A stretch of DNA of 64,000 nt from Moheibacter sediminis (GTDB taxonomy: Bacteria > Bacteroidota > Bacteroidia > Flavobacteriales > Weeksellaceae). The position numbers and the translations under genes are program-made. The notes beneath the pieces were generated by a model. The model ran no database searches, was not told the origin of the DNA, and saw only the letters and a program-made list of their open reading frames with translations. The first letter of the stretch is position 1. Every line of letters begins with the position of its first letter. Location of the stretch: assembly GCF_900176425.1 (NCBI RefSeq), contig NZ_FWXS01000003.1, positions 124,001-188,000 on the forward strand, read 5' to 3'. This document shows, piece after piece, positions 6,318-55,239 of this stretch.

Positions 6318-6548
6318 CTACTTACTATTCTCATCCTTTATCCCTTTCAAAATCGCGTACACAGCCATCGCATGACCATGTCCCAGCCCGAAATCCCCTT
6401 TCAGCCAATCCACGATTTCCCCCGCTTTCACTTCAGGCTTCAGCAAACCATCCACCGAAAAAGCCTTTTCATCAGCAAGATCCCTGAATTCCTGAGCCCC
6501 ATTTCCCGTTTTTTCTTTGATTGTTTTTAGATATGCTTGGAATGACAT
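6318..6548 (-). CDS. DUF4287 domain protein
   Basis: This 76-residue cytoplasmic protein matches the DUF4287 family: MSFQAYLKTIKEKTGNG at the start, a central KAGEIVDWLKGDFGLGHGHAMA core with the conserved GHGHAMA, and an end close after AILKGIK. The family is small and widespread, sometimes attached to DUF5655 domains; its biochemical role is not established. Length equals the stand-alone form. It is monocistronic as far as can be seen. Confidence 0.88.
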   Translation of the reverse strand: MSFQAYLKTIKEKTGNGAQEFRDLADEKAFSVDGLLKPEVKAGEIVDWLKGDFGLGHGHAMAVYAILKGIKDENSK

Positions 6549-6679: not shown

Positions 6680-6943
6680 TTATTCAGCTGAATTTTCAAC
6701 TGCTTCCCCAGACTCATCTCCACTATCTTCCTCTTCAATGAAAATTTCTTTTATTTGTTCTAGCATTTCCACAATTTTACTTGTTTCTTCTTCATCTAAA
6801 TTATTGAAATCTGAATCCTCAATATTTGGGTTTTCTAATAATTGCTTAACCATTTCTATGTAGCTAAAATCTGTTGTAATGGTTCCTTGTTGAATTTGAG
6901 ATTTTATATCTCCATTTGTCTCTTTTGTAAACAGTAGTTTCAT
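6680..6943 (-). CDS. small acidic partner protein of the PHP-ATPase
   Basis: This 87-residue protein is not recognised. It is strongly acidic, especially the C-terminal third (FIEEEDSGDESGEAVENSAE), with a helical middle (EETSKIVEMLEQIKEIF). Its ATG shares one base with the stop of the upstream PHP-ATPase gene (TAATG at 6943), so translation is probably coupled and the two products likely work together. It could be an inhibitor, a nucleic-acid mimic or an adaptor; the sequence does not decide among these. Composition is A+T-rich like its partner. Confidence 0.7.
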   Translation of the reverse strand: MKLLFTKETNGDIKSQIQQGTITTDFSYIEMVKQLLENPNIEDSDFNNLDEEETSKIVEMLEQIKEIFIEEEDSGDESGEAVENSAE

Positions 6944-9252
6944 TATTCATTAAATTTTTTAAGGTTATACTTTTTAACTCGTTTTTTTATAGATGATTTT
7001 CCGCCATCAGTTATTTCAGCTATATAATCTACCACACTTTTTTCTTCTATATTTCCCTCTAATGCACATGATATAATTTTAATTTTATTATTCTCAATGT
7101 TTCTACACAATATGATATTTTGAGCATCTGCCAACATAGGAATTGTTGCATTATGCGAAACTAATATGACTTGTTTTTTAGATTTAATTTTTTTGATTGC
7201 ATTAACAAGACCTTTATTTATATAGTTAGTAGCTAAATTGTCTTCTGGCTGATCAATAATTATCGGAGAGATGTCTTCTTCATAACCTAATATTAAATCT
7301 AAGATAATGGAAGTTTTCCAACCCGGGCTTAAGGAATCAAAATCTTTCCCATCTTTAGTTATTATTTTATACTTTTTTCGATTTAAATCTTCAAAGTCAC
7401 TATAAATTTTCTTTTCTAAATCATCATAACTATGCACTTTAGGATTTTGTTTTTTATGGTTTATATCAAAGAAAATATTTGGAGTTATATCTTCAAATCT
7501 ATCAATTTTTGTTTTTAAATATTTGTTAGAAACATCTATAAATTTATCTTTATTTAATTTAAAATCATTTTCAATATGTAGTTTATGCCCCATTGATTCT
7601 ATAACTTCAGATTCAAAGTTTAATGAGTAGTTTGCTATTTTATCTAAAATTTCATCAAATCTTTTAGTAGCTTTAATATACTTCTTTAAAGAAATTATTA
7701 GCTTTTCAAAATGTAATTTTTTACTTTGATCTTCCGAATTATTTTCTCGAAGTATACTATCATAATTTGTTTTTGAACTGGTTACGATATTTCTTATTTC
7801 ACTCTCTTTCAAACTACTATTGTAAGCAAAATTTAGTTCAGACCTCAATCTTGTCATTAGTGTATCATCATGAATTACGAAAGGATATTTACTAAGGAAT
7901 TCGTCTATTTCATTCAAATTATTTATGAATTCATAATATTTTGCACTCCCAAACTCTAATTTAGTTTCATCAATGTCAGAAGGTAAAATATTTTTAAAGG
8001 GATTGGTGCGCAAATTTTTATTCACAATCAATCGGGAAATTATAGGTATTGTATTTAAATTCTGTACTTCATTATCAATGATTTTCACATTTTTAATAAG
8101 TTCTTGAATATCTTTTTTTAAGATAAGCAATCCATTATTTATTTGTTCTTTTATGTTTGCATCACCAGGAAAAACATTTTTTATTATATCAATGTCATCA
8201 ATTTTATTTTCTGAGATGTTGTTTACAACACTCATTATATAATTTTGAGACAAAAAATGTGGAGTCATCCCCGATGGGTTTATAATTTCTGCTTTGTCAA
8301 TTTCATATTGTTCTAAATAAATAGATGATTGAGTTGTTGCTGAAATGTTTTTATGTATAGAATCTACTAAAAGAGATTTTCCACTTGAAGAGCTACCAAT
8401 AACAACATTTAATCCTGCTGTTAGTTCAACATCAATATCAATATTTGATTTATGAAGTTTGACGCTCTTTATATTCTCTGACCAAAATTCAGGTTTTGTT
8501 TCTGAGTAAATAAGCCTTGAAGATTCTGATAAAGATAATCTCAACCCATTAAAAGTCGGCTTAGCTAACATCCAAGTAGGCACGTATGGATTTTTATCTT
8601 TACCATTTGGATAACTTGTAGGCTCATAATTATCACTGCACGTAATCAGATTCACAAATTCATTTATTCCAAGTTTAGTAAAATATTCTTGAGTTCTTTC
8701 TAATCCTCTATTCCCTCTAGCAGTAAATCCATCAAACTGATTGTAGTAAATGCTTTTTTCTAAAGTAGTATCAAATTTTACTCCTGTTGGTATTGAAGTA
8801 TCAAATGTCGCATGAGATTGACCACCATGGGGTAAAAGTAGAAAATCATAATTGTCAAATTCATTAATTATTTGTTGAATTGTTGGTATGGTTGGGTCTA
8901 ATTTTTCGACAACCTTATCAGGATATAGTTTGTCAAGTTTCTTATTTACATCATCAATTATTTCGGAATTCAATTCAACAACATCAAAGTATATATGACA
9001 ATGATAAGCAGGGCAATTATCATAATTTTTGATATGGAGTTCAACCCCCAATATTATATTTAAATTTAATTCTTTGGCTTTTAAATATGCTTTCTTGTTT
9101 ATGGTATTATGATCAGTTAAAGAAATTAGGAAATCAGAATTATTAGTGAAATTATTAATTTTTTCAACTAATAATTCAATAGGATAATTATCAACTAAAT
9201 TATTGGCATTATCTGAAGTATGAATATGAATGTCGACGAAAATTGGATTCAT
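6943..9252 (-). CDS. PHP-domain protein fused to an SMC/RecF-like ABC ATPase
   Basis: The 769-residue protein begins with a PHP metal-dependent phosphoesterase domain: VDIHIHTSD (His9, His11), SLTDHNT (Asp47, His48), GVELHI (Glu71), YHCHIYFD (His84, His86) and a later LLPHGG. A Walker A motif GSSSSGKS lies near residue 285, followed by a long Asn/Lys/Ile-rich helical, probably coiled-coil, segment. Then come an ABC signature-like LSPGWKTS, a Walker B PIIIDQPEDN and an H-loop ILVSHN near the C terminus. A nuclease-like domain on an ABC ATPase is a layout often met in mobile defence genes, but I cannot assign a named system. G+C is very low (7 of 60 bases at 7501-7560), suggesting horizontal acquisition. 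One base overlaps the small downstream gene. Confidence 0.85.
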   Translation of the reverse strand: MNPIFVDIHIHTSDNANNLVDNYPIELLVEKINNFTNNSDFLISLTDHNTINKKAYLKAKELNLNIILGVELHIKNYDNCPAYHCHIYFDVVELNSEIIDDVNKKLDKLYPDKVVEKLDPTIPTIQQIINEFDNYDFLLLPHGGQSHATFDTSIPTGVKFDTTLEKSIYYNQFDGFTARGNRGLERTQEYFTKLGINEFVNLITCSDNYEPTSYPNGKDKNPYVPTWMLAKPTFNGLRLSLSESSRLIYSETKPEFWSENIKSVKLHKSNIDIDVELTAGLNVVIGSSSSGKSLLVDSIHKNISATTQSSIYLEQYEIDKAEIINPSGMTPHFLSQNYIMSVVNNISENKIDDIDIIKNVFPGDANIKEQINNGLLILKKDIQELIKNVKIIDNEVQNLNTIPIISRLIVNKNLRTNPFKNILPSDIDETKLEFGSAKYYEFINNLNEIDEFLSKYPFVIHDDTLMTRLRSELNFAYNSSLKESEIRNIVTSSKTNYDSILRENNSEDQSKKLHFEKLIISLKKYIKATKRFDEILDKIANYSLNFESEVIESMGHKLHIENDFKLNKDKFIDVSNKYLKTKIDRFEDITPNIFFDINHKKQNPKVHSYDDLEKKIYSDFEDLNRKKYKIITKDGKDFDSLSPGWKTSIILDLILGYEEDISPIIIDQPEDNLATNYINKGLVNAIKKIKSKKQVILVSHNATIPMLADAQNIILCRNIENNKIKIISCALEGNIEEKSVVDYIAEITDGGKSSIKKRVKKYNLKKFNE

Positions 9253-9318: not shown

Positions 9319-9334
9319 TTACGGAAAACCGTAA
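9319..9334. promoter_or_regulatory. palindrome upstream of the PHP-ATPase gene
   Basis: TTACGG-AAAA-CCGTAA lies 67 bases before the start codon of the minus-strand PHP-ATPase gene. It has no T tract, so it is more likely an operator or leader hairpin than a terminator. Confidence 0.35.
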
Positions 9335-9395: not shown

Positions 9396-9740
9396 ATCCC
9401 AACCCTAAATTCCCTTAAATCCTCAACATTGCAAAACAAATCCCCAAACTTCCTGATTCCAACCCAATACATTACAGATTTATCCCCATTTTCTTACATT
9501 AGATCCCCATAATTCTCAATAGTATCCCCAAAACTGTACTAAGTATCCCCATACTTTTCCAAAGCATCCCCAGAATTAAACTGAGTATCCCTTTACTTTT
9601 CCATTACATCCCTGGAATTAAACCAAGCATCACCCTAGTTAGCATCCCCCTGAACTGAACATAGCATCCCCAGACTTGGCGATGGCATCCCTAAAATTCT
9701 ACAGATATATCTCAGAAATAAATTTGCAATCCTTAATGGA
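9396..9740. repeat. degenerate 21-bp-period tandem array (ATCCCCA units)
   Basis: Heptamers of the form ATCCCCA or close variants start at 9419, 9440, 9482, 9503, 9524, 9545, 9566, 9587, 9608, 9629, 9644, 9666, 9687 and 9709. The step is 21 bases almost throughout; 9461 is a degenerate unit and 9644 is shifted. Read on the minus strand in one frame the units encode heptads such as ALEKYGD, TIENYGD, TQFNSGD and AWFNSRD, interrupted by stops. The array fills most of the 504-base gap between the glycosylase and the PHP-ATPase gene. Nothing else was seen in that gap except the palindrome at 9319. Confidence 0.8.
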
Positions 9741-9756: not shown

Positions 9757-10374
9757 TTAATAAACCGCCGTTTTACCCCTTTTACACAAGTAATGATGCC
9801 ACATAAAGTACGTAGCAAGTGAACGGCAGGGCTGCCACCGCACAGCAACTTCCAGAATTTCCTCATGCGAAGTCACTTCATACAACGCTTTGATGGTATT
9901 TACTACCGCTATATCCCCGATTGGAAAGATATCCTTATGCTGCAGACAAAACAAAAGATAAACATCCGCAGTCCAGTTTCCGATTCCTTTGATGGAAATT
10001 AATTTCTTCCGAACCGTCGGCTCATCCATCCCGATCAATTCCTCCAAAACCAATTCCCCACTTACAAGGGCAACAGAAAGATTGCGCAGATATTTCGCTT
10101 TTTGCCAGCTGATATGACAATTCCGCATTTCCTCATCAGAAAGCAGTAAAATATTCTCAGGCGAGAACGATTTGATATAACCATTTAACCTTTCAAAGTG
10201 AGCCTTCGCCGAAGCTAGACTGACCTGTTGCTCCAAAATAATCTTCGACAACGAAATGAAATCAGCACTTCTCTCCCAGTTAGGAGGCGCACCATATAAC
10301 GCATAAATTTCACGGATAATTTCATCCTTCTCCAAAAGAAAATCCAAATCTTTTTGATTAACAATCTTATCCAT
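9757..10374 (-). CDS. DNA-3-methyladenine glycosylase II (AlkA-like, HhH-GPD)
   Basis: The 205-residue protein is a helix-hairpin-helix base-excision glycosylase. The hairpin and catalytic region is clear: LISIKGIGNWTADVYLLF followed by FPIGDIAV, whose Asp is the expected catalytic residue of the GPD superfamily. ILEQQVSLASAKAHFERL near residues 47-64 matches the conserved N-terminal helices. It lacks the extra N-terminal domain of E. coli AlkA, as most short bacterial forms do, and has no Fe-S cluster motif. It excises alkylated purines. It appears monocistronic and its stop abuts the 21-bp repeat array. Confidence 0.88.
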   Translation of the reverse strand: MDKIVNQKDLDFLLEKDEIIREIYALYGAPPNWERSADFISLSKIILEQQVSLASAKAHFERLNGYIKSFSPENILLLSDEEMRNCHISWQKAKYLRNLSVALVSGELVLEELIGMDEPTVRKKLISIKGIGNWTADVYLLFCLQHKDIFPIGDIAVVNTIKALYEVTSHEEILEVAVRWQPCRSLATYFMWHHYLCKRGKTAVY

Positions 10375-10405: not shown

Positions 10406-11278
10406 TTAGTAAGTCTTTGTCATATCCGTCGGGAAAACCAAGTTGTATTCCGTCGGAAAGAAATCTTCTTTCGGAAGTGAAAGTTTACCATCTTCCGATT
10501 CAAATACCGAAATCACAGCAATCTTCAAATCCGGATTCAACTTTTTCAAATACCAGAAGATTCCGCCATATTGTTTGCTGTGAAAATCACCCTGATAATG
10601 TAAAAGTAAATGACCTTGTTTCCAGTTTTGTAGAATAGATTCCGCCATAGTTGCATCTTTCACCGCTTGTGCTGCAACAAAGTTCATTGCACTTGGACCT
10701 GCGTGGTCTCCCATCATTTCCAACATTTCAGGATAGCCCGGTGTGTCCAATGTCACTTCCACAGGAAGTTTCATCATATAAGTTTTTTCTTTCGGAGTAA
10801 CAGTATTCAAACTATCCAATCCCTTTTTGGAAACGATGGAAGCATATCTTCTCGGAATATTTGTCGCGATGAAATTCAATTTTTTATCTTTTGCAAAATC
10901 AACCAAAGGTTTATAATCAGTAGTGAAATTATTCCACAAACGCATCGAATCTTTCAACACTTTCTCGCTCAATTTCCCGGATAAATAATCATTTAATTGA
11001 GATTGATTGTCACGTTCAAACATTTCTGCACCTAAAACCAGACTTGATTTTTTCTTGTCATAAAGTGCTTTGGTCAATTGTAATTGAAGCCAGTGATTGA
11101 TGGAATTATTGTGGTGTTCACCAAAAAGCACGATGTCATAATTTGCAAGGTCATTTACAATCTTATCAAATTTCACTTCTTTTCCTTTCTTATTGTAGAA
11201 TTGAAAAGGCTTTACATCTTGTGCAGATAGGATTGTAAACTGAAATATGAAGATGAAAAAAAGAATATATTTCGTCAT
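10406..11278 (-). CDS. ChaN-like exported iron/haem-associated protein
   Basis: I place the start at the ATG at 11278 (290 residues), because MTKYILFFIFIFQFTILSAQ is a good signal peptide, whereas starting nine codons earlier adds a polar extension. The mature protein carries the ChaN (Tiki/EreA-like superfamily) signature VLFGEHHNNSINHWLQ, and later GDHAGPSAMNFVAAQAVKDATMA and LLHYQGDFHSKQYGG, all typical of the family. Campylobacter ChaN binds haem cofacially and is linked to iron uptake; the hmu operon lies 1.2 kb away, though in a separate transcript. The actual ligand here is not proven. Confidence 0.85.
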   Translation of the reverse strand: MTKYILFFIFIFQFTILSAQDVKPFQFYNKKGKEVKFDKIVNDLANYDIVLFGEHHNNSINHWLQLQLTKALYDKKKSSLVLGAEMFERDNQSQLNDYLSGKLSEKVLKDSMRLWNNFTTDYKPLVDFAKDKKLNFIATNIPRRYASIVSKKGLDSLNTVTPKEKTYMMKLPVEVTLDTPGYPEMLEMMGDHAGPSAMNFVAAQAVKDATMAESILQNWKQGHLLLHYQGDFHSKQYGGIFWYLKKLNPDLKIAVISVFESEDGKLSLPKEDFFPTEYNLVFPTDMTKTY

Positions 11279-11471
11279 GACTGAATTAAATTGAATGAGC
11301 TGCAAATGAACATTAGAATTGTCGAATGAACAAATATTTGGTTGAGATATTTATCATTGAATCAATTGGTTTTGAAATAATTTAAGATAATTTTAAATCT
11401 GTTTATTGTAATTTTTTAAATGAATGGCTTTATTTTTAAGGAAATTGAATTTAACGATAAAATATTTACAA

Positions 11472-12496: not shown

Positions 12497-13525
12497 TTAT
12501 TTTTCTAATTCTCCAACGAGTTTTCTCCATTCTTCCAATTCAGGAATTCCTGGTTTTCTCTTTCCAAAGAACTGAACGATGATTTCTCCTTCAGAATTAA
12601 ATACTTCAATTGCTGTTACCAATCCGTCTTCAGTTGGTTTTCTTACTACCCAGGTCTCAGCAATTTTTGCAGTATCCAAATGCAAATTGAAATTCGGATC
12701 CATCACATTGAACCATGTTCCGTGCCACATCGTTTTCTTTACATTTCCGGTATGGATCTGGATATTTCCTCTGTTTCCAACAAAAACCATGATAGGTAAA
12801 TTTCTTTCAGAAGCCTGTTCAAGCATCTTAGAAATTTTTTCATTGTCAATCTTTCTGGCAAAGGTCTGATCCGGAGCCAAACGTAAAGCCTGCAATCTGC
12901 TTACGCCGAACTGACGCAACATCATGAAGAAATTATGCGTGTCTTTCAATTCTCTCCAAGCCGTTTGGAAACCTTCTACATCGATTTCAGAATCAGGTTT
13001 TTCTTCTGCTTTCGGAGCGATTGCTTCTGTTTCGATTCCTGTCGATTGATCTTCAGCTTTGAACTTTTCAACCAAAGCATCAAATGCTGCTTCGTTGCTG
13101 TCTTTAGTTAAATATATTTTATGAATTGCCAATCCGTCTTTCCCAAAGAATTGCAATGATTTTTTATCTCCTTCAACCACTGCGAAGGCATATTTCCAAT
13201 GAGAACCAAAAATTCTCAAATCGATGTCTTCTCCTACGAAAAGCTGTGCATGCGGATTGCTGAAATCTCCGTTCAAATAAACCCCTTTTCTTTCATGAAC
13301 ACATTCATCGTTACGTGTCAAAGCCATTACTTTTCCCAAAGATTCAACTTCAGAAAGTATTGCAGGAATGTCAGAACTCAATTTCGTAGCGCCTTCATTT
13401 ACAGTAGTTGAAAGTAATTCTCCCTCGCTAACTCCCAATGCATCAGCAGCATTTCTGATTCGCAAATGAGGTTGCTCTGCTTTCAGCGCATTCCATTTTT
13501 CTTTTAGTGTATCAGTACTTGTCAT
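12497..13525 (-). CDS. hmuS: hemin-degrading factor (HmuS/HemS family)
   Basis: The 342-residue cytoplasmic protein has the duplicated HemS/ChuX-like fold: the N-terminal half opens with LKEKWNALKAEQPHLRIRNAADALGVSEGELL and the second half with FQTAWRELKDTHNFFMML. Conserved haem-protein phrases NRGNIQIHTGNVKKT and MWHGTWFNVMDPNFNLHLD are visible. Members bind and degrade imported haem or pass it on. It is the last gene of the hmuTUVS cluster, separated from hmuV by a 103-base spacer containing a repeat, so its expression may be partly independent. Confidence 0.93.
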   Translation of the reverse strand: MTSTDTLKEKWNALKAEQPHLRIRNAADALGVSEGELLSTTVNEGATKLSSDIPAILSEVESLGKVMALTRNDECVHERKGVYLNGDFSNPHAQLFVGEDIDLRIFGSHWKYAFAVVEGDKKSLQFFGKDGLAIHKIYLTKDSNEAAFDALVEKFKAEDQSTGIETEAIAPKAEEKPDSEIDVEGFQTAWRELKDTHNFFMMLRQFGVSRLQALRLAPDQTFARKIDNEKISKMLEQASERNLPIMVFVGNRGNIQIHTGNVKKTMWHGTWFNVMDPNFNLHLDTAKIAETWVVRKPTEDGLVTAIEVFNSEGEIIVQFFGKRKPGIPELEEWRKLVGELEK

Positions 13526-27786: not shown

Positions 27787-30700
27787 TTATTTCTTGATAA
27801 CTTTTACAGTTTTGACCTGATTGTTTGAAACAATTTTAACTATATAAGTTGCAGAAGCCAAATGTGATAAATTTAACTCCACAGATTTAGCATTTGCTTT
27901 TTTCTCCAAAATCAATTGACCTGAGAGATTAAATACCAATACATTGTCAATTTGATTTGTGTTTGAAATATGAAGAATGCTTTTCACAGGATTTGGATAA
28001 TAATTGAAATTAGCGAAATCAGCATCCTTAACACTCAATTCTTCTGTTTCGATTGCAGTTTTCTCACTTTCACATCCATTGATAGTTTGAGTTACATAGT
28101 AAACTTCTCCGTCAACCAGTGGTGTAGATGGATCTAATATATTGCCCTCCTCATCATACCATGTAAGATTTTCTCCTTCTACATCCAAATCGGCCAATGT
28201 CGCTCCCGCCTCAAATTCCTGCAAATCAAACGCAATAGGTGCTCCTGGAATTTCATTGATGGTAACTTCAACCGCAGTTCGTTCACTTTCGCAAGTTTCA
28301 GAAGACTGAGCCACGTAATAAGTTCCTGAAGTCAATTCAGTTTCAGCAGTTAAAGCCTCAGTAGAATCTTCTGTCGCATACCAAGCTAAATTTGTTCCTT
28401 CTGCAGTTAAATCAGCAACTGTAGCTGTTCCACAGAAATCTTGCGCTTCAGCAGTTGGAGCCGCAGGGATTTCATTGATGGTAACTTCAACTGCAGTTCT
28501 TTCACTTGTACAATCATTTGCAGATTGAGCAACATAGTATGTTCCTGAGGTTAATTCAGTTTCTTCAGTCAAAGCTTCAGTAGAATCTTCTGTCGCATAC
28601 CAAGCTAAATTTGTTCCTTCCGCAGTTAAATCAGCAACTGTAGCTGTTCCACAGAAATCTTGCGCTTCAGCAGTTGGAGCCGCAGGGATTTCATTGATGG
28701 TAACTTCAACTGCAGTTCTTTCACTTGTACAATCATTTGCAGATTGAGCAACATAGTATGTTCCTGAGGTTAATTCAGTTTCTTCAGTCAAAGCTTCAGT
28801 AGAATCTTCTGTCGCATACCAAGCTAAATTTGTTCCTTCCGCAGTTAAATCAGCAACTGTAGCTGTTCCACAGAAATCTTGCGCTTCAGCAGTTGGAGCC
28901 GCAGGGATTTCATTGATGGTGATTTCAACCGCAGTTCTTTCACTTGTACAATCATTTGCAGATTGAGCAACATAGTATGTTCCTGAGGTTAATTCGGTTT
29001 CTTCAGTCAAAGCTTCATTCGCATCAATTGCATCATACCAAGTTAAATTAGTTCCTTCTGCAACTAAATCAACAATAGTTGTAGTTCCACAGAAAACTTG
29101 CGCTTCAGCAGTTGGAGCCGCAGGGATTTCATTGATGGTGACTTCAACCGCAGTTCTTGGACTTTCACATCCGTTTACAGTTTGTGAAACATAATAGGTT
29201 CCTGTTTCAAGCGGTGTTTCATTTGAAAGAACATCCGTAGAAGTTTCAGATGCATACCATGAAATGTTATTGTCCGTTGTATTTGTCTGGTAAAAAGTAA
29301 CGTTATCAATGTAAGCAGTAGGAAAAGTGTCTTGTCCTACAAATTTAATCTTAATATTTTCAGACAATTCATTTACATTGATTGTGTATAATTGAAAATC
29401 ACCCGGCTGAAGTGTAATCGTTTGTAAGTGAGATTCATTTCCGTTTACGATTTTTGATATGCTCAATGTTTTGTCAGCAGTAGCTTTTCCATAAAATGAA
29501 ACAGAAACAATGCTGTCGAATTCTGGCGATATCATAGTCGGGAAGAAATTGAAACGGGCAGCATAACCTGAAATAGAATTGCCCGGTTCATTATTTGTTC
29601 CTACATTTTGTGTAGCCCATATTCCTAAATCATAAGGAGCATTGCCCGTAATACTTCCCGGTACATCTGCTTCGAAACCTTCTACCAAAGGAGCCGTTCC
29701 GCCTGCAGAGGCAGGAATCAAATCAGCAACTGTAGCCGTACCACAGAAAGCTTGTGCTTCTGCAACTGGAGCAGCAGGAATATCGTTTACTGTAATTTCA
29801 ACTGGAGTTCTTGAGCTTTCGCATCCGTTTCTTGATTTAGAAACATAATAAGTTCCTGTCGATAATTGCGTATCAGCCGATAATGGTGTTCCTCCATCAG
29901 CTACATCATACCAGTTGATGGTGATTGCTTCATTAAATTTAACATTATCTAAATTAACGTCTCCTGATTGGCTTGCAAACAATATCTGGGCATCTTCATT
30001 TTCATTTACATCAACATTGAATAAAGTATATTCTGTAACATTGTTAAGGTTGATTTGTTCCAGAGTCGTTTCTACTCCATTTACAAGTTTTGAAACTCTA
30101 AGTGCTGGATTTTGTTGAGTGCCACGTTTTGCATAAAAACTTACAGTGTGAATTCCTTCGAAAACAGGAGATTTGATAGAACCTTTCAACGGATCGAAAT
30201 TATTATACATACGAACCGCACAGCCTTCATAAGCATTTGCATCACAAATATGTCTTACATTTCTGTTGACAACGGTCCATTCTAAATCAAAATTATGTTG
30301 GCCTGCAGGAAGTTCCGCGCGTTCCGTTTCTAGATTAAAGCTTTCGCTACGGTCTGTAACTACGCTTGGAATTAAATCTGATACCGTAGCCGATCCACAG
30401 AAAGACTGAGCTTGAGCGACCGGAGCCACAGGGATATCATTGACAGTAATTTCAATCTGAGTTCTAGGACTTGGACAATTGTTTACAGTTTGAGAAACAT
30501 AATAAGTTCCTGTTTGCAATTGCGTTTCAGCTGTAAGTGGGGTAGTAGAATTCGCTGAATTGTACCAATTTAAATTTGTTCCTTCTGCGATTAAATCTGC
30601 AACAGTAGCCGATCCGCAAAAAGACTGCGCTTCAGCAACTGGAGCTTCAGGAGCAGGCTGAACTGAGATTTCAACTGGAGCTTTTTCGCTTTCACAGTTA

Positions 30701-31914: not shown

Positions 31915-31956
31915 TGTTCCGATTTCAGGAAAAAGTGTTCCGATTTCAGGAAAATT
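31915..31956. promoter_or_regulatory. two 21-bp direct repeats, candidate activator half-sites
   Basis: TGTTCCGATTTCAGGAAAA occurs at 31915 and again at 31936, a period of exactly 21 bases, and ends 6 bases upstream of the promoter-like element. Two-turn direct repeats at such a place are typical AraC-family half-sites, and an AraC-type gene begins its 3' end 96 bases away. Confidence 0.6.
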
Positions 31957-55151: not shown

Positions 55152-55239
55152 AAATTAAATTTTTTTAAAGTCTGCAAATTTATACTTTTTCAAATAAAAA
55201 CTTTAAACCCTCAAACCTAAACTTTAAACTTTTAGTTCT

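Follow-up and report, generated by a model that had tools for sequence, protein, structure and literature searches.

A noncoding array of 21-bp direct repeats in Moheibacter sediminis as a candidate phased protein-binding platform

The window analysed here, a 64,000-nucleotide stretch of the Moheibacter sediminis genome, carries an intergenic array of short direct repeats between a gene for a PHP-ATPase protein and one for a DNA glycosylase. The features of this region are as follows.

6943..9252, minus strand: PHP-ATPase protein, its start codon about 165 bp away from the regular part of the array (gene call and protein scan)
9319..9334, minus strand: small hairpin between the array and the PHP-ATPase start; about as many are expected by chance
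9396..9418, plus strand: degenerate edge of the array on the PHP-ATPase side, with CCC words out of register (autocorrelation, word placement)
9419..9628, plus strand: ten consecutive 21-bp units, each starting with ATCCC or a one-mismatch version, 8/10 exact (autocorrelation, unit alignment, word chain)
9629..9643, plus strand: short 15-bp unit with the word ATCAC (word chain)
9644..9707, plus strand: three more units of 22, 21 and about 21 bp, all with an exact ATCCC (word chain, unit alignment)
9708..9740, plus strand: degenerate opposite edge of the array, weak register (autocorrelation, inspection)
9757..10374, minus strand: HhH-GPD DNA glycosylase (AlkA-like), whose stop codon adjoins the array (gene call and protein scan)
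10406..11305, minus strand: ChaN-like haem-binding protein, two genes upstream (protein scan)
12497..13525: HemS/ChuX gene, near the array (protein scan)

The PADLOC Ppl model matches the PHP-ATPase in its C-terminal part only; the PHP part was named in the initial annotation and by eye. A DUF4287 gene (6318-6548) lies downstream of this Ppl-resembling gene. Genes for a PiT-like transporter and AlkA are near neighbours in the genomes G005 and G004 whereas they are about 8 kb apart here, so that the PHP-ATPase region looks like an inserted block. The AlkA gene of these two genomes adjoins other genes than in the window. The array had been described as lying directly upstream of the PHP-ATPase module. 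It does lie upstream, although its regular part stops about 165 bp short of the start codon, and the implied tie with this gene is not supported because neither G006 nor the five further family genomes searched that carry arrays have the protein. Two partial, C-terminal PHP-ATPase matches occur in Capnocytophaga felis (G061), on contigs other than those carrying its arrays. A link with the PHP-ATPase was therefore rejected.

Fourteen ATCCC words, exact or with one mismatch, can be placed between 9419 and 9691, and 11 of them are exact. Along the array they are spaced by 21 bp ten times, then by 15, 22 and 21 bp. TRF reports a period of 21 at 9503-9577 and of 42 at 9503-9631, and autocorrelation peaks at lags 21 (0.469), 42 (0.505) and 63 (0.447) over a background of about 0.27. 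When one mismatch is tolerated, the pattern ATCCC-N16-ATCCC-N16-ATCCC is matched 8 times in the window, every time inside the array; this count was reached in none of 100 dinucleotide shuffles, whose maximum was 0. ATCCC words (at most one mismatch) chain furthest at spacing 21, with 11 words in 599 kb of the genome; the runner-up has 4 at spacing 19 and the remaining spacings from 12 to 40 give 2 or 3. An ATCCC array with a 21-bp period is thus confirmed. The initial annotation had counted about 15 units over 9396-9740, with a word every 21 bases. The periodicity stands; the clear words number 14, and the regular part covers about 9419-9707, the stretches 9396-9418 and 9708-9740 being weakly in register. 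The register breaks at 9629-9643 (15 bp) and at 9644-9665 (22 bp), and the 15-bp unit disrupts the helical phase. A 42-bp duplication is visible (9545-9586 and 9587-9628). These fixed-period tandem units, found above chance and in no protected reading frame, agree with a noncoding minisatellite or a set of close direct repeats. There is good support for a noncoding and degenerate array of direct repeats, each unit spanning two helical turns. Elsewhere in the window, two intergenic sites (31915-31954 and 55190-55229) carry short 21-bp duplications, each of 1.9 copies, and there is a 219-bp tandem repeat of 4.4 copies (28250-29204) within a gene of 1228 residues.

A period of 21 bp is a multiple of three, and the array had previously been read as a former coding repeat whose minus strand gives a heptapeptide interrupted by stops. 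This reading frame exists and does contain stops. However, the coding origin is not borne out. There are 3 stops in nine units of that frame, compared with 2.8 when columns are shuffled among units. With the register set so that ATC CCC reads as GD on the minus strand, divergence hardly depends on codon position (mean pairwise identities of 0.553, 0.502 and 0.537). Leaving out the word gives 0.324, 0.364 and 0.451 (14 columns, a weak difference), the highest value belonging to codon position 1 as read on the minus strand. The translated heptads have relatives in 1 of 197 family genomes, namely their own, match no Pfam family and find one weak place on a plasmid (E 0.5). The 22-bp spacing breaks the frame. 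In G006 a comparable array (described below) is spaced 21,21,20, so that two turns are held while the frame is lost every third unit. Points in favour of coding are that other arrays happen to be open in some frame and that the conserved columns of the C. felis array L200 are three apart. The open frames of several arrays probably result from the divisibility of 21 by three alone. With stops as frequent as in column shuffles, conservation blind to codon position and no intact relative in 197 family genomes, the decayed gene was rejected and we consider it extremely improbable. ORF callers will nevertheless find heptad "proteins" in 21-bp arrays.

Conservation within the unit is very uneven. 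In an alignment of 13 of the 14 units, from which the 15-bp unit was dropped and in which three units were aligned by their word, pairwise identity in the five word columns is 1.0, 0.85, 1.0, 1.0 and 0.85, and that of the other columns ranges from 0.22 to 0.72. A second, weaker conserved patch, A.TT, occupies columns 8-11. Simulations of equal decay were as uneven as the observed conservation in 0/5000 cases, under the assumption of independent units, which the real ones are not in view of the 42-bp duplication. Such a profile, with a word that hardly varies in a unit that is otherwise mostly near saturation, is unlike even decay. Within this one array, both the word and the helical spacing are thus kept beyond the rest of the unit.

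Recurrence at every 21 bp would place ATCCC on the same side of the helix each time, so that a phased multi-site platform for a protein would be its most likely function. A two-turn protein-binding array had already been proposed as the alternative to a gene. It fits a kept word in a drifting unit, and this part of the earlier description survives as a candidate rather than as proof. A C run would be expected to decay first in an AT-rich genome, and its persistence favours a platform. The main rival is a neutral or selfish minisatellite, whose units, products of slippage or unequal recombination, would serve no function and simply decay. Its 21-bp period would come from the origin of the array, either through helical phase in strand exchange or as multiples of a common intergenic heptamer. 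The visible 42-bp duplication speaks for this rival, as do the intergenic 7-bp microsatellites built on ATCCC, which are frequent in the family. However, equal decay would not leave an invariant word beside saturated columns, and a 7-bp signal is lacking from the window array (0.213, compared with 0.274 overall). The window array also shows an elevated half-turn (10.5-bp) harmonic; as most other arrays lack this elevation, it was dropped as an argument.

The two strands of the array are strongly asymmetric. Its GC skew is -0.55, and an absolute skew of at least 0.55 is found in only 0.8% of 606 noncoding 300-bp windows of the same genome. This asymmetry raises the possibility of an element acting as RNA, either as a C-rich, G-poor plus strand that loads Rho in antisense transcripts or as a minus-strand GGGGAU sponge for a protein. 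Three other arrays of this genome, presented below, are also skewed (L158 -0.35, L130 -0.40, L139 0.36). However, neither strand folds better than shuffled sequences (z 0.18 and -0.84), the orientation relative to the downstream gene varies between arrays, and the transcription direction of both neighbours puts the G-rich strand in their RNA. A CsrB/RsmZ-like sponge for CsrA was discarded as CsrA is absent from 21/21 genomes. RNA structure as the basis of the array was rejected on the unremarkable fold scores and on an Rfam search of the array that returned chance-level matches only. An RNA-level element is therefore improbable.

The array is not alone in its genome. A lag scan of this 3.23-Mb genome (G000) sampled 598,846 bases, of which 80,760 lie outside ORFs of 100 codons, in stretches that, the window excepted, were not picked by pattern hits. 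It identified 8 noncoding arrays. Half of them (4/8) have lag 21, including the three strongest, which are L158, the window array and L130. With the score threshold lowered to 20, the 16 hits over lags 10-45 include 6 at lag 21 and 4 at lag 42. The three other noncoding lag-21 arrays are listed with part of their consensus.

L158:6707-7016: among the three strongest, AACGTCCGTT
L130:15991-16139: among the three strongest, CTCCGTTTT
L139:11083-11212: GAGTGAAGGA

The repeated words differ among these arrays, and the uneven conservation is not significant in L130 (p 0.53) or L139 (p 0.26), with 6 units each.

The earlier description had suggested looking for the same array in relatives. Arrays with a 21-bp period exist in some of them, whereas the sequence of the window array itself has no copy in 39 other relatives. 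Trios of ATCCC at spacing 21 are found in 32 of 320 family genomes. These include many heptamer microsatellites such as (ATCCCTA)n, in which 21 bp is three periods. The backward pattern, used as a control, is hit often too, and mostly in these same genomes with heptamers, so that the raw 32 is not itself an enrichment. After removal by eye of 7-bp microsatellites and single hits, multi-unit ATCCC arrays at spacing 21 are left in six of the 320 genomes (G000, G247, G311, G203, G171 and G115), the array coordinates of G311 being those of Chryseobacterium sp. Leaf394 (G059), so that the family is the one to which Chryseobacterium belongs. One unit recurs at more than one locus in G203 and in G247. 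Control spacings of 22, 20 and 24 bp gave 2, 5 and 3 genomes respectively, with one match each, and the lack of multi-unit arrays at these spacings speaks against a minisatellite. A word shared across genomes reflects the search, since ATCCC was the query. Among the matches listed, a scan of contigs with a looser pattern returned many unrelated arrays, 7-bp microsatellites or coding repeats.

Samples from other genomes give a more irregular picture. Seven family or order genomes (760 kb), likewise not picked by pattern hits, contain 13 noncoding arrays, one with lag 21 and one with lag 62, both in G006. No lag-21 array was found in the samples of G013, G040, G045, G046, G027 and G037. The lag-62 array of G006 (L228:8741-9258, in an intergenic gap) is the one spaced 21,21,20 repeatedly; it has 24 TTCC[GT]C (TTCCGC-like) words and a higher-order unit of 62 bp. 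Lag 21 accounts for 1/16 arrays in Leaf394, 6/14 in C. felis and 2/8 in a Dysgonamonadaceae MAG, in samples partly chosen for hits (the stretches of G059, G061 and G063 were partly picked for ATCCC). In 400 kb from five genomes of other phyla, of which about 32 kb are noncoding, one array was found, with lag 20; these genomes had themselves been reached via pattern hits and were sampled away from known hit places. The class of 21-bp arrays is recurrent but patchy.

Several individual arrays deserve mention. The Leaf394 array L185:9602-10002 lies between likely homologues (judged by their first residues) of the HemS/ChuX and ChaN genes of the window. However, its distance to these genes differs from that of the window array and its orientation relative to them is opposite, and the shared neighbourhood may be a coincidence. 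C. felis has several intergenic 21-bp arrays (L208, L200 and L209). Some of their units are short palindromes, e.g. CCCTAAAGGG, and the conserved columns of L200:12273-12504 are three apart, as coding would show. At L025:1859-1983 and across the genome of the Firmicute Gracilibacillus kekensis (G064), ATCCCG words recur at intervals of 21 bp, in 39 trios distributed over both strands. These arrays are often paired, close together and in opposite orientation.

The open PubMed Central literature yielded no account of intergenic arrays with a 21-bp period in this group, and the portions of PMC5771137 and PMC5561996 that were available contain nothing on such arrays. The nearest known elements are tandem repeats of Porphyromonas gingivalis, intergenic heptamer repeats and the general class of close direct repeats. 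According to the accessible part of the source, P. gingivalis carries BrickBuilt together with other tandem repeats of 22, 23 and 41 nt (PMC4596501). They resemble the window array in lying between genes of a member of the Bacteroidota and in consisting of direct repeats in tandem, with a unit that measures about two or four helical turns (PMC4596501, same part). BrickBuilt has a period of 23 and 19 copies per genome, some with terminal inverted repeats, as far as that part goes (PMC4596501), whereas the window array has a period of 21, one copy and no clear terminal repeats. In favour of a minisatellite inside a similar miniature transposable element are the shared phylum, the intergenic location, the similar period and the fact that Leaf394, G247 and G203 have unit sequences recurring at two or three loci. 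However, only weak AT-rich pairs surround the window array in place of clear terminal inverted repeats, and it is single-copy in this genome, all eight pattern hits of G000 falling inside it. With terminal repeats missing and one copy, such an element was rejected as very improbable.

In the available extracts of a SPADE survey (PMC6344855) and of a study of TAACTGA repeats (PMC4679880), tandem heptamer repeats are, like the window array, intergenic, widespread and of unknown function. The ATCCCTA heptamers of the same family share the word of the window array. However, heptamer repeats have a period of 7 and nearly perfect units in these extracts, whereas the window array lacks the 7-bp signal. 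The counted class 6n6g24 of prokaryotic close direct repeats (PMC4060949) also consists of a short word repeated with gaps of up to 24 nt; it sets no fixed period in the part of the paper available, while the period of the window array is fixed at 21.

CRISPR repeats, in contrast, are near-identical, about 23-50 bp long and separated by unrelated spacers. Only about 5 bp of the unit are kept here, which led us to discard a CRISPR array, and no cas gene was found among six nearby proteins scanned. Plasmid iterons and partition-site arrays are protein-bound direct repeats at about two helical turns; the window array differs from them in that no rep or par gene is present among the flanking genes scanned (HhH-GPD, ChaN, HemS and PHP-ATPase). 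A G-quadruplex formed by the GGGG runs was dismissed because such structures limit the length of their spacers and those of the array are too long. A resemblance of ATCCCCA to DnaA boxes was considered by eye and dropped.

Taken with its surroundings, the locus is best read as a noncoding array of two-helical-turn units and a candidate phased platform for protein binding, a reading that we put forward tentatively and at somewhat less than even odds. The putative DNA-binding protein could use the platform as a regulator or as an architectural protein, or be titrated by it, and the bound platform would govern how the two adjoining transcription units are expressed or how the DNA between them is shaped. 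The recurrence of spacing 21 in the same genome and in multi-unit arrays of the family, where 20, 22 and 24 give single hits, argues for the platform. Against it stand the patchy occurrence, the non-significant unevenness of L130 and L139 and the 15-bp unit that is off phase. Moreover, arrays of a single genome already differ in their word, so that one sequence-specific protein cannot serve all of them. The change of word from array to array and the patchiness among relatives also agree with a neutral minisatellite, which we regard as nearly as probable as the platform.

A broader proposal, which we judge unlikely at present though worth stating, is that intergenic arrays of some Bacteroidota form a class united by a conserved 21-bp period, with a word free to vary with the array or species, the window array being one instance. 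If this is true, these genomes are subject either to an architectural protein that reads spacing or to a process that builds arrays by measuring off two turns. Two-turn spacing without a conserved sequence would then be a handle on how DNA shape or protein arrays organise intergenic gaps or, alternatively, on the birth of bacterial minisatellites.
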